DNA from: Limibacillus sp.
GTDB lineage: Bacteria; Pseudomonadota; Alphaproteobacteria; Kiloniellales; CECT-8803
Reading direction: 5' to 3'
Assembly: GCA_037379885.1 (NCBI GenBank)
Contig: JARRJC010000002.1
Coordinates: forward strand, 113,762-177,761
Length of the DNA stretch: 64,000 nucleotides
In this document: in pieces, positions 46 through 48,049 of the stretch
How the letters are laid out: each line of letters begins with the position of its first letter
Position numbering within the stretch: position 1 is the stretch's first letter
The notes under the pieces: generated by a model
What the model saw: only the letters and a program-made list of their open reading frames with translations
Database searches by the model: none
Told to the model about the DNA's origin: nothing
Translations under genes and position numbers: made by a program

Positions 46-1158
<1,113 letters not shown>

Positions 1159-1399: not shown

Positions 1400-2215
1400 T
1401 TGATCCTCTGCGAGCGCCGGGCGCACATGGCCGACGCCGACGCCCTGGTGTTCCGCCGCCTGGGCGAAGCCTACGCCGCCAACGGCCTTCTGATGGAGGC
1501 CAAGGCGGCCTTCCGGCGCGCGATCCAGTTGGGCGGCGATCCCGAAGACCTGCGGCGCATGATCGCCACCACCGCTGAGATGGCGCGCGCCACAGCCGAG
1601 CCGCATCCGGCCTGGGCCAGTCCGCCGGTCGAAGCCGACGCCACCCCGCCGCCGCCCCTCGTGATCAGCGGGGCGGACGGCCTCCCGCAGGATGAGACGG
1701 AACCGGCGAGCGCGCCCGCCCCGATCCGAGCCGCGCCTGCGCCCCCTTCCGGCAGCGGGTCCGCTGAGGGGTCGGCGCTGCCCGCGGACGGCCCAGCCGA
1801 AGGCGAGGAGCGGATCGCCGTCGCGGCCCTGCCCGAACCGCAGGCGCCCGCCTACTTGCCCGAAGCCCCGGTTGTGCCCGAAGCCCCGGTTGTGATGGAG
1901 GAAGAAGCCCCGGCAAGCGCGCCGCAACCCGCAGAGGCGGCGGCTGAACCCGCCAGTTCCGGCGCCTACAAGGTTCAGCTCGCCTCGGTCGGCGACCCGG
2001 CGGTGGCCCGGCGGGAGGCGGAGTCCCTGAAGCGGCGCTTTCCCGGCCTGCTCAATGGCTTGCGCTTCACCAGCGAGACCATCGCCCTGGAGGGGCGGGG
2101 GCTGTTCCACCGTGTGCAGTTCGAAGGCCTCGGCAGCCTGGCGGGCGCCCGGGCCCTCTGCTCGCGCTTCAGGTCGCTGGGCCAGGACTGCTTCGTGCCG
2201 CTATCCCAAGGCTGA
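1400..2215 (+). CDS. SPOR-domain protein with TPR-like N-terminus and Pro/Ala/Glu-rich linker
   Basis: The last about 80 residues (from YKVQLASVGD to the end) form a SPOR domain, which in known proteins binds denuded septal peptidoglycan. The start is followed by a TPR-like helix pair (LGEAYAANGLLMEAKAAFRRA) and then about 120 residues of acidic, Pro/Ala-rich linker. No signal peptide or membrane anchor is visible in the open frame. The start is doubtful. The first usable in-frame codon is TTG at 1400, but sequence that reads as good protein (FAASYEAQSLDRLCAQELEE) continues upstream to about 1322 in the same frame without a start codon. A GTG at 1297 with a GGGGG ribosome site lies in another frame, so a one-base shift near 1315-1330 is likely. 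Confidence 0.7.
   Translation: MILCERRAHMADADALVFRRLGEAYAANGLLMEAKAAFRRAIQLGGDPEDLRRMIATTAEMARATAEPHPAWASPPVEADATPPPPLVISGADGLPQDETEPASAPAPIRAAPAPPSGSGSAEGSALPADGPAEGEERIAVAALPEPQAPAYLPEAPVVPEAPVVMEEEAPASAPQPAEAAAEPASSGAYKVQLASVGDPAVARREAESLKRRFPGLLNGLRFTSETIALEGRGLFHRVQFEGLGSLAGARALCSRFRSLGQDCFVPLSQG
1859..1894 (+). repeat. Tandem 18-bp repeat, two copies, inside the SPOR-protein linker
   Basis: Two exact head-to-tail copies of an 18-base unit beginning CCCGAAGCCCCGG encode PEAPVV twice in the disordered linker. It looks like a slippage-type duplication that changes linker length only. Confidence 0.9.
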
Positions 2216-33250: not shown

Positions 33251-33325
33251 TGGAGCGGGCGATGAGATTTGAACTCACGACCCCAACCTTGGCAAGGTTG
33301 TGCTCTACCCCTGAGCTACGCCCGC
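33251..33325 (-). tRNA. tRNA-Gly (anticodon GCC)
   Basis: A 75-base tRNA with encoded CCA. The acceptor stem GCGGGCG/CGCCCGC is perfect, the D-loop reads TAGCTCAGGGGTAGAGCA, the anticodon arm is CAACC-TTGCCAA-GGTTG with GCC, and the T-arm contains GTTCAAATC. It decodes GGC, the main glycine codon in this GC-rich genome. Confidence 0.97.
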
Positions 33326-44204: not shown

Positions 44205-44405
44205 GCGCCAAAAGGAAATCACGCCGGGATCACCTTTCCGCCGCATTCGGCGGGCATATCCTATGAAGCCTTCCCTCCCGGACGGGTGCAGGACCCAAGC
44301 GAAAAGCTTTCCTTGCCTCGTCCGGGTCAAGGCCACATCTTCATGCGGGCGAGCGCCTGGGCGCCCTCACGGAACGACATCAAGGATCACGGGATCTCCA
44401 AGGAA

Positions 44406-45197
44406 ATGCCTTTGTCTTTTGCCCCGAAAGCCTCCGCCCTCTGCTGCGCGCTGCTGGCCGCGGTCCTGCTAGGTCCGGCGCCGCTCGCCGCGCAGAGCAG
44501 CGAGAGTGCCAGCGACGCCCCGCCGCCGATCCGGCTCAGCCCCGACTATCCCTCCGGCGATATAAACGGAAACGTCCAGCCCAGCCTCGGCGTCGACGAG
44601 GACTACGTGGTCGACGGCATCGAGGGGGCGGGCAAGGCCGTCCAGGCCGCCGACATCCTGGGCCGCATCGAAGGCTACATGAACTCCATCAAGACCCTGC
44701 ACGCGCACTTCGAGCAGATCGCCTCGGACGGCTCCTACGCGACCGGGCTGATGGTGCTGGACCGGCCCGGCCGCATGCGCTTCGAATACGATCCGCCGCA
44801 CCCGGTGCTGATGATCGCGACCAGCGGCACGCTGGTCTACTACGACCGCGAGCTGGAGGAGGCGACCTACATCCCGGTCAGCCAGACCCCGGTCTGGTTC
44901 CTGCTGCGCGACGACATCACCTTCGGCGACCCCTTGCAGGTCGTGGAGCTGAAGCGGCGCGGAAACAGTTATCTGCTGTCGCTGGTCGAAGAGGGCGAAC
45001 TGGACCAGGGCACCGTGACCCTGCAGTTCCAGGTTGATCCGCTGAAGCTGGAACGCTGGCAGATCATCGACGGGCAGGGCACCATCACGCAGATCACCCT
45101 GCTGGACCCCAAGTTCAACCGTGACGTGGGCGACCACCCCTTCGACATCTCGGTCTTCAAGGACCGCTTCCCGCAGGACGACGGCCCGGGCCAGTAA
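44406..45197 (+). CDS. lolA: Outer-membrane lipoprotein carrier protein LolA family
   Basis: A 263-residue periplasmic chaperone for lipoproteins. It has a signal peptide (MPLSFAPKASALCCALLAAVLLGPAPLAAQ), a long acidic spacer, then the LolA body: IKTLHAHFEQIASDGSYATGLMVLDRPGRMRFEYDPP, and LVYYDRELEEATYIP. It is 200 bases downstream of ftsK, the usual neighbourhood ftsK-lolA-xthA. The gap contains a CCGCCG-CATT-CGGCGG hairpin without a U-run. Confidence 0.88.
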   Translation: MPLSFAPKASALCCALLAAVLLGPAPLAAQSSESASDAPPPIRLSPDYPSGDINGNVQPSLGVDEDYVVDGIEGAGKAVQAADILGRIEGYMNSIKTLHAHFEQIASDGSYATGLMVLDRPGRMRFEYDPPHPVLMIATSGTLVYYDRELEEATYIPVSQTPVWFLLRDDITFGDPLQVVELKRRGNSYLLSLVEEGELDQGTVTLQFQVDPLKLERWQIIDGQGTITQITLLDPKFNRDVGDHPFDISVFKDRFPQDDGPGQ

Positions 45198-46150: not shown

Positions 46151-46936
46151 ATGAGCAAAGCAACTCTTCCCCTGATCGGCCTTCCCGCCTGTGTCATTCA
46201 GGCCGAGGGCATGCCCTTCCACAAGGTGGGCGACAAGTACGTGCGCGCGGTTGCCGTGGGCGCGGGCGGCCTGCCCATCATGATCCCCTCGCTGGGCGAC
46301 CTGATCGACCTGGAGGATCTGGTCGAACGGCTCGACGGCCTCTTGATGACCGGTTCGCCGTCGAACGTCTTCCCGACCCACTACCGGGAGGAGCCGCACC
46401 CCGACGCCGAGCCCCACGATCACTGGCGCGACGAAACGACGCTGCCGCTGATCAAGCTGGCGATCGAGCGCGGCGTTCCGCTGTTCGCGATCTGCCGGGG
46501 TTTCCAGGAGTTGAACGTGGCCATGGGCGGCACGCTCTATTCCAAGCTTCAGGAAGTGCCGGGCCGCTTCGACCACCGCCAACCCAAGAGCGACGACCCC
46601 GATGTGCGCTACGGCGAGGTCCATGACCTCGAGCTGGTGCCGGGCGGCGTCTTTGCGGGACTTCTGGGGGCGGAAAAGGTGCGCATCAACTCCCTTCATG
46701 GCCAGGGAATCAAGGACTTGGCCCCAAAACTGACGCTGGAGGGCACCGCCCCCGACGGCACGATCGAGGCCGTGCGCGTCACCGACGCCAAGGCCTTCGC
46801 CCTCGGCGTGCAGTGGCATCCGGAGTACAAGTGCTGGGAGAACGAAGTCTCCATGAAGCTGTTCCGGGCCTTTGGGGAGGCAGCGCGTGAACGCGCCGCC
46901 GCGCGCGCCGCCGGACGCCTTTCGCTCGCCAGCTGA
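46151..46936 (+). CDS. Gamma-glutamyl-GABA hydrolase family protein (PuuD-like class I amidotransferase fold)
   Basis: A 261-residue protein of the peptidase C26 family. The nucleophile is Cys in FAICRGFQELNVAMGG, and the His-x-Glu pair is in GVQWHPEYK. LLMTGSPSNVFP matches the oxyanion-strand motif. PuuD removes glutamate from gamma-glutamyl-GABA in putrescine breakdown. No other puu gene is adjacent, but glnT and the decarboxylase 30 kb away would suit the same chemistry. Confidence 0.85.
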   Translation: MSKATLPLIGLPACVIQAEGMPFHKVGDKYVRAVAVGAGGLPIMIPSLGDLIDLEDLVERLDGLLMTGSPSNVFPTHYREEPHPDAEPHDHWRDETTLPLIKLAIERGVPLFAICRGFQELNVAMGGTLYSKLQEVPGRFDHRQPKSDDPDVRYGEVHDLELVPGGVFAGLLGAEKVRINSLHGQGIKDLAPKLTLEGTAPDGTIEAVRVTDAKAFALGVQWHPEYKCWENEVSMKLFRAFGEAARERAAARAAGRLSLAS

Positions 46937-47043
46937 TCGGGCCTGCCGGGCCGCGCTGTCTGCAAACGGGCTATGTCCGATTCGCATGGCGATTTGGGAG
47001 TCACGGCGTTGCAACGAAGCCCTGTCATCCTAAATATGTGGGT

Positions 47044-47169
47044 ATAGGGAACGACGCCTCCCCGAGGCGTCACAATCCCACTGGTGAAGGATTGCTCTCC
47101 CCTGCCAATCCTTCATCACTCCTAGGAGTAATTGAACGCCCGGCCGCCCCCCGACCGGGCGTTCTTTTT
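47044..47169 (+). ncRNA. Candidate small RNA with three hairpins and C-rich loops
   Basis: The 321-base gap before xthA holds an RNA-like block. Hairpin 1 is GACGCCTC-CCC-GAGGCGTC (8 bp perfect). Hairpin 2 is TGAAGGATTG / CAATCCTTCA (10 bp perfect) with the loop CTCTCCCCTGC. The palindrome ACTCCTAGGAGT follows. The last is an intrinsic terminator, AACGCCCGG / CCGGGCGTT, with a C-rich loop and CTTTTT. A possible promoter is TTGCAA with AAATAT 17 bases on (47009-47037). C-rich, anti-Shine-Dalgarno-like loops are typical of several alphaproteobacterial trans-acting RNAs, but I do not recognise the family. Confidence 0.6.
47135..47169 (+). terminator. Intrinsic terminator ending the candidate small RNA
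   Basis: The perfect 9-bp stem AACGCCCGG / CCGGGCGTT has an 11-base loop CCGCCCCCCGA and a CTTTTT tail. It lies 89 bases before the xthA start and would separate xthA from any upstream transcript. Confidence 0.9.
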
Positions 47170-47257
47170 GTCCGGAACCCGCCTTGCGGCGCAGGGCCTC
47201 TGCGGCCAGACTGCGGCCTCTCGTCCAAAGACAAGAAGCCGAAGGGGGCTGCCCGTC

Positions 47258-48049
47258 ATGACCGTTATCGCTACCTGGAACGTCAACTCGCTGCGCCAGC
47301 GGCTGGAGGGGCTCGCCCGCTTCGCCGAGGAGAAGCAGCCGGACGTGGTCTGCCTACAGGAAACCAAGGTCACCGACGATCTCTTCCCCGCCGAGGAGAT
47401 CAAGGCGATGGGTTTCGAGCATCAGGTGGTGCGCGGCCAGAAGAGCTACAACGGCGTCGCCGTCCTATCGAAGAAGCCGCTGAAGGCCGTGCGGGACCGC
47501 CGTCCCTGGTGGGGCAAGGACGACTGTCGCCACATCGGCGTCGAGCTGGCCGACGGCACCGAGCTGCACTGCTTTTATGCCCCCTCCGGCGGGCCCAAGC
47601 CGGACCCGGAAGCCAACGAGAAATTCGCCCACAAGCTGGGCTTCTACGACGAGATGGCCGACTGGGCCGAGCGGGAACAGGACCGCAAGCGGCCCACCAT
47701 CCTGATGGGCGATCTCAACATCGCGCCGCTGGAACAGGACGTCTGGAACCACAAGAAGCTGCTGCGCTCGGTCGGACACACGCCCGGCGAGTCCGAGCGC
47801 TTCGCCACGCTGCTGGAGCGCGGCGGGCTGGTCGACGTGGGCCGCCGTTTCGTGCCGCCCGACCAGCCGCTCTACAGCTGGTGGGGCTACCGCTTCGCGG
47901 CCTCCTTCGAGAAGAACTACGGCTGGCGCTTGGACCACGTGCTGGCCAACGAGGCCGCGAACGCCGGGATCAAGGGCTTCGAGGTCTACAAGGACACCCG
48001 CACCTGGGAAAAGCCCAGCGACCACGTGCCCGTCATCATCGAGCTTTGA
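47258..48049 (+). CDS. xthA: Exodeoxyribonuclease III
   Basis: A 263-residue AP endonuclease and 3' exonuclease of base-excision repair. It has ATWNVNSLRQR, the Glu of LQETKV, YNGVAVLSKK, MGDLNIAP with the metal and catalytic Asp/Asn, SWWGYR and the terminal SDHVPVI His. The ATG used starts the fold and follows GAAGGGGG; a longer frame overlaps the upstream RNA terminator. Its TGA abuts the alkB stop (TGATCA). Confidence 0.95.
   Translation: MTVIATWNVNSLRQRLEGLARFAEEKQPDVVCLQETKVTDDLFPAEEIKAMGFEHQVVRGQKSYNGVAVLSKKPLKAVRDRRPWWGKDDCRHIGVELADGTELHCFYAPSGGPKPDPEANEKFAHKLGFYDEMADWAEREQDRKRPTILMGDLNIAPLEQDVWNHKKLLRSVGHTPGESERFATLLERGGLVDVGRRFVPPDQPLYSWWGYRFAASFEKNYGWRLDHVLANEAANAGIKGFEVYKDTRTWEKPSDHVPVIIEL

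Follow-up and report, generated by a model that had tools for sequence, protein, structure and literature searches.

In the window (the whole 64,000-nucleotide stretch of Limibacillus sp. DNA analysed here), the intergenic gap between a Peptidase_C26/GATase gene and an xthA-like DNA-repair gene holds a compact series of hairpins on the strand of both neighbours, the last of which is an intrinsic terminator. The features of the locus are these:

44286-45197, plus strand: lolA (Pfam PF03548, 2.7e-24); open reading frame as listed, the true start of which may be further in
46151-46936, plus strand: upstream neighbour, Peptidase_C26/class-I glutamine amidotransferase (Pfam PF07722, 1.1e-72)
47009-47035, plus strand: promoter-like element, TTGCAA at 47009-47014 and CCTAAAT at 47029-47035
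47042-47170, plus strand: proposed small RNA of about 128 nt, its 5' end placed from the promoter-like element
47053-47071, plus strand: hairpin P1, 8 bp with loop CCC, its sequence differing much among genomes
47083-47117, plus strand: hairpin P2, with C-rich loop CTCTCCCCTGC at 47095-47105
47118-47129, plus strand: small hairpin P3, a 12-bp palindrome, ACTCCTAGGAGT, that folds as a tetraloop hairpin
47134-47169, plus strand: intrinsic terminator P4, with C-rich loop CCGCCCCCCGA at 47144-47154 and a T run
47258-48049, plus strand: downstream neighbour, xthA-like exonuclease III family protein (Pfam PF03372, 3.5e-33)

Read from the sequence, the arms of P1 are GACGCCTC (47053-47060) and GAGGCGTC (47064-47071), and the 10-bp stem of P2 joins TGAAGGATTG (47085-47094) to CAATCCTTCA (47106-47115) around CTCTCCCCTGC; the 10-bp stem of P4 joins GAACGCCCGG (47134-47143) to CCGGGCGTTC (47155-47164) and is followed by five T at 47165-47169. 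The loops in the window are CCC, CTCTCCCCTGC and CCGCCCCCCGA, and the C-rich runs left exposed are UCCCCUGCC in P2 and CCCCCCGA in P4.

At -71.5 kcal/mol, the fold of the 171-nt stretch is well below that of its 200 dinucleotide-preserving shuffles (-48.1 +/- 4.0), not one of which reached so low an energy (z -5.9); the two perfect stems, the palindrome and the clean terminator that the initial annotation had placed in the gap are thus borne out by coordinates and fold alike. The palindrome calls for some qualification, since the exact 12-bp repeat is present in the window but is incidental: relatives have in its place a short hairpin whose four-base loop varies (CGCG, TTCG, TACG or GCGA). The minus strand also folds strongly (z -4.3) because inverted repeats necessarily fold on both strands, but the plus strand alone fits the T run and the promoter-like element. 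A simple terminator scan finds one site, P4, against 1.5 in shuffles, so that the terminator by itself is unremarkable and it is the ensemble of hairpins that is remarkable. No E. coli-type promoter passes a promoter scan of the stretch. Upstream of the RNA lies the bipartite element ATTGCAA-N14-CCTAAAT, its spacing of 14 kept in 40 of 53 homologues; scored on a consensus derived from the same sequences, it reaches at least 11 of 14 in 68% of them (17 of the 53 fall below) and in 1.6% of shuffles. A start about 7 nt past the -10-like part would yield an RNA of about 128 nt, close to the 125 bases or so proposed earlier; that the RNA is transcribed is itself inferred.

A DNA search of 98 relatives returned matches in many genomes, several at E < 1e-8. 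Of the loci fetched from 29 relatives, 28 have the amidotransferase on the side expected (it is not in the fetched flank of L034) and 25 have xthA there (the fetched flanks of L015, L017, L018 and L029 are without it). The exact terminator pattern matched 30 stretches in the named genome collection, under the order and family labels Kiloniellales/Kiloniellaceae, Rhodospirillales/Rhodospirillaceae and Rhodovibrionaceae and in genera including Fodinicurvata, Tistlia, Rhodovibrio, Pelagibius, Ferruginivarius, Denitrobaculum and Aquibaculum; two of the stretches come from MAGs named to phylum or class only. All members of the homologue set (n = 53 including the window, 51 from the order and two, L069 and L071, from other families) fold better than their own shuffles (z < -2, median -5.2; 60 mononucleotide shuffles per sequence). 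P1 bears a loop resembling GCAAnG in many relatives and CCTCCTACCTC in one genus of family f3 (e.g. L039, L046). The long stem of P2 changes freely around a loop, TCCCCTGCC, that is invariant in all 16 rows of the alignment A3 described below, and the C-runs of both the P2 and P4 loops are kept more widely among homologues while the stems vary. Some copies depart from this architecture: L026 (G028, 1496-1576, minus strand) is a natural loop variant that has lost the C-rich P2 loop and kept P3 and P4, and L052 (G031, 193-300, minus strand) is an apparent decayed copy with an interrupted terminator, in which P2 and half of the terminator are recognisable.

Covariation in these stems does not come easily to automated folding. 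RNAalifold recovered the terminator only on the MAFFT alignment A1 (42 of the 53 sequences) and the terminator plus part of P1 on A2 (35 of 53; L081 was excluded from every alignment), and it missed P2 on both, presumably because P2 stems differ in register. This shortfall, which counts against easy covariation, led to the use of two further alignments: A3, a MAFFT alignment of 16 of the 53 sequences picked for one P2 register, with the counted structure read by eye from the sequences and their folds, and A6, 47 sequences fitted to the covariance model R1 and leaning toward its structure by construction. In A3, 98.4% of cells pair, against at most 57% when the partner is slid, and two-sided changes occur in 9 of 24 pairs versus 2.3 in shuffles. 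A6 has 94.2% pairing, two-sided changes in 19 of 23 pairs spread over all three helices, and a covariation score of 0.468 against 0.184 shuffled and no more than 0.151 slid. By helix, such changes affect 7 of 9 (A3) and 8 of 8 (A6) pairs of P2 and, in A6, 4 of 4 pairs of P3 and 7 of 11 of P4. Compensatory changes are present in every modelled helix, and the comparison with relatives that the initial annotation had proposed as a check on the stems comes out in favour of the structure, P2, P3 and P4 all changing on both sides.

The window copy is in the seed of both covariance models used to follow the RNA further; R1 matches 47085-47169, and R2 matches the same place in the genome, scoring the window 90.2 bits. 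With R1 the RNA turns up in 51 of the 98 relatives, and 49 of these belong to the 61 genomes of the order. In the class R1 matches 33 of 385 genomes, and 18 of the 25 loci outside the order have xthA and/or the amidotransferase in the short flank; by reading, L127 and L128 have ftsK-lolA upstream. R2 raises the class count to 48 of the 385 sampled genomes and also matches 9 of 299 genomes of the phylum, of which only one is not in the class; that weak match, in G479 (E 8.4e-4), is without the neighbourhood and was taken as chance. The covariance search is blind to neighbouring genes. Flanks of 4 kb were fetched for 40 matches outside the order (38 of 44 class R2 matches, G527 and G479), and counting lolA or the amidotransferase 5', or xthA 3', on the same strand, the neighbourhood ftsK-lolA-(amidotransferase)-RNA-xthA surrounds 31 of the 40, under 20 family labels. 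The other nine are G400, G261, G377, G064, G479, G351, G226, G101 and the second G349 match. Six class matches were not refetched; in the short flank the neighbourhood was seen in G096, G223, G320, G396 and G439 and was not seen in G274. G069 has an additional 33-bit match about 0.9 kb 5' of xthA. The window copy has the features that define the family, namely P2-P3-P4 with C-rich P2 and P4 loops in the setting lolA-(amidotransferase)-RNA-xthA. The RNA is also dispensable, given that some genomes of the order do without it: 12 of 61 give no R1 match, and in L044, L047, L055 and L058 the amidotransferase and xthA lie close or abut with no RNA between them. In G004 (contig C1, 26431-27461 and 4619766-4620796) the RNA and xthA occur twice, near both contig ends, the second xthA in two frames, which suggests that the overlap of a circular chromosome was left untrimmed, and not that the locus is truly duplicated.

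Covariation, the presence of the promoter-like element in most members, class-wide spread and the shared neighbourhood together lend strong support to what had been suggested from the window alone, a free-standing gene for a structured small RNA whose loops are C-rich. The existence of this old, uncatalogued small RNA family is close to certain. The fuller reading, to which we give a probability of roughly two in three, is that it is an independently transcribed small regulatory RNA with its own terminator, belonging to an uncatalogued family old within the Alphaproteobacteria and acting in trans through its C-rich loops.

The window's only Rfam match at gathering score, which is also its only ARAGORN match, is a tRNA-Gly (gcc) at 33251-33325 on the minus strand, and no family reaches that score in the gap; the initial annotation, which could not match the RNA to a known family, is upheld by this covariance search. 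The best sub-threshold match, in the window, is ar14 (RF02344) at 27.2 of 58.8 bits, rising to 35.4 bits in G001, a genome of the same family, and further homologues gave, at the RNA, only ar14 and other matches below cut-off. Across the class, the ar14 model matches 25 of 385 genomes sub-threshold and none above cut-off, and it matches none of 14 control genomes. These scores, a similar loop logic and the coincidence of ar14 and R2 matches at a shared locus in both G274 and G438 speak for a diverged member of the alpha-r14 (cuckoo) family, yet ar14-like and R2 matches are separate loci in G064, G198 and G324; of 30 ar14-like loci, R2 matches those of G274 and G438 well and three more weakly, and a single one has xthA or the amidotransferase in its fetched flank. 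Alpha-r14 RNAs, of which NfeR1 of Sinorhizobium is one, are alphaproteobacterial, repeat C-rich unpaired loops and end in a terminator hairpin with a loop motif, as here, but are described as three hairpins each with an identical CCUCCUCCC (PMC10746234), a motif absent from the window RNA, which has four hairpins, the loops UCCCCUGCC and CCCCCCGA and another neighbourhood. In light of the score, far below the threshold, and of the separate loci, the RNA is not filed under ar14, and membership seems improbable. Tandem ar14-like RNAs were seen in passing at L180/L205 (G082) and L181/L206 (G310), with several CTCCTCCC loops and scores just short of the cut-off (up to 56.9 of 58.8 bits); the Rfam threshold may miss some true ar14 RNAs.

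A second possibility is that the RNA is processed from the 3' UTR of the mRNA upstream, the origin reported for SorX, which comes from ompR-1 in R. sphaeroides (PMC8625941). It gains some interest from L085 (G082, 204-438, minus strand), where two SorX copies (69.8 and 64.8 bits, cut-off 46.6) lie between a response-regulator gene and xthA, on the strand of xthA, so that the slot 5' of xthA is occupied there by a different, known small RNA. Between SorX and the RNA described here, this likeness of position and strand is set against an upstream gene in G082 that is a response regulator, the published 3'-UTR origin of SorX, and the failure of R2, run without filters, to match that locus up to E 5. 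The SorX model (RF02784), for its part, matches nothing in the window at gathering score and, up to E 10, nothing in 46900-47280. More generally, a promoter-like element at fixed distance upstream of the RNA and an immediate upstream gene that is lolA or the amidotransferase, depending on the genome, both speak against derivation from a 3' UTR, which we consider unlikely.

Quite improbable, too, is a cis-acting leader or attenuator in which the terminator governs read-through into xthA. The RNA does immediately precede xthA, on its strand, in the window (about 88 nt away) and in most relatives, but the interval is not visibly conserved, an unsystematic look brought no alternative antiterminator pairing to notice, and outside the order the RNA is kept where xthA is 0.8 to 3.1 kb off or absent from the fetched stretch. 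Since the RNA is retained where one or the other neighbour is missing or far off, an independent small RNA gene is the better fit. That the locus merely ends the upstream gene, as its terminator with some inverted repeats, and has no regulatory function accords with the clean terminator formed by the last hairpin. This is very improbable, however, in view of the other three hairpins, of which two show compensatory changes, and of conserved unpaired C-rich loops, none of which termination needs.

Other alphaproteobacterial small RNAs offer parallels rather than identities. GsrN of Caulobacter, whose C-rich loop pairs with G-rich mRNA sites, has homologues that are typically near general stress response regulator genes, and not lolA/xthA, and that by BLAST are reported as confined to Caulobacteraceae (PMC5869019). 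It was set aside by that published locus: linkage to ecfG/nepR/phyR would mark a GsrN, and the neighbours here are lolA, the amidotransferase and xthA. The SisA-D/alpha-R8 small RNAs likewise occur throughout the Alphaproteobacteria beside a conserved gene, but theirs is an N-formylglutamate amidohydrolase gene and the core UUUCCUCCCU is single-stranded and not two hairpin loops (PMC12559287). A search of the literature by titles and abstract openings found no RNA described at this locus, though an unnamed transcript may already stand in a list elsewhere, such as a supplementary table; the main text of an Azospirillum small RNA survey, in the portion available, is without xthA or exodeoxyribonuclease III (PMC7685610).

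As for how an independent trans-acting RNA would work, it would be transcribed from its own gene, as some 125 nt ending at its own intrinsic terminator, and its two exposed C-rich loops (UCCCCUGCC in P2, CCCCCCGA in P4) would pair in trans with the G-rich translation starts of several mRNAs, with Hfq as the most likely partner, thereby lowering or raising translation of those targets. Precedents are NfeR1, an alpha-r14 RNA reported to silence ntrB through anti-Shine-Dalgarno loops (PMC10746234), and GsrN, whose C-rich loop reportedly acts on the katG leader (PMC5869019). The conserved C-runs match the working mode known for alpha-r14 RNAs and GsrN; a function in trans through the C-rich loops is likely, and action on Shine-Dalgarno sequences plausible. 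A search of 60 genomes of the order for the loop complement before a start codon (GGCAGGGGA-N3-9-ATG) gave 352 sites, against 9735 with AGGGGA alone and, for permuted controls, 265 (GCG) and 162 (CGG). The excess over the controls is modest; the spread between permutations makes this an unclean test, tetranucleotide frequencies differing, and base composition could explain the excess. Among the 99 of the 352 sites that were read, a part set by the listing and by the reader's choice (49 with a frame open for 90 aa or more), no target was convincingly conserved across families. Cross-genus matches among the 99 are a short LivH-like similarity (L287/L360) and short-chain-dehydrogenase-like frames (L328 versus L333, L347 and L349, 33% identity), both named by reading; a further one, L293/L338, looks on reading like frames antisense to a coding gene. 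In a single case, in G001, a site precedes a potA-like gene (TIGR01187), and because SorX is reported to act on a spermidine transporter mRNA (PMC8625941), this site merits a test, and no more than that.

The RNA is a new family of a known kind of regulator. Its broader history is more speculative. Two genomes of family f20 have hairpins with C-rich loops and a terminator in the sequence preceding xthA, at L190 (about 1501-1620) and L084 (about 1039-1142), and R2 scores these low (18.8 bits in L190, 15.8 in L084); the gene upstream in L084 we take, from reading the frame, to be lolA, and the label sphingomonad-like for these loci is our guess. A regulatory RNA gene might have occupied the lolA-xthA slot from an early point in the history of the class, with the present family, the sphingomonad-like hairpins and perhaps SorX (in Rhodobacter relatives) as vertical descendants of one ancestral C-rich-loop small RNA, a notion that we regard as tentative and rather doubtful; if true, it would place this RNA among the oldest core small RNAs of the Alphaproteobacteria. 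The alphaproteobacterial families met in the papers cited here come from work on Rhizobiales, Rhodobacter or Caulobacter. A family that spans 20 family labels outside the order and keeps a fixed neighbourhood provides a defined locus for experiments, and genera with named isolates carry it, including Fodinicurvata, Pelagibius, Tistlia, Rhodovibrio and Denitrobaculum. It thereby offers a way to ask how the regulon of a C-rich-loop RNA shifts while the RNA itself stays.
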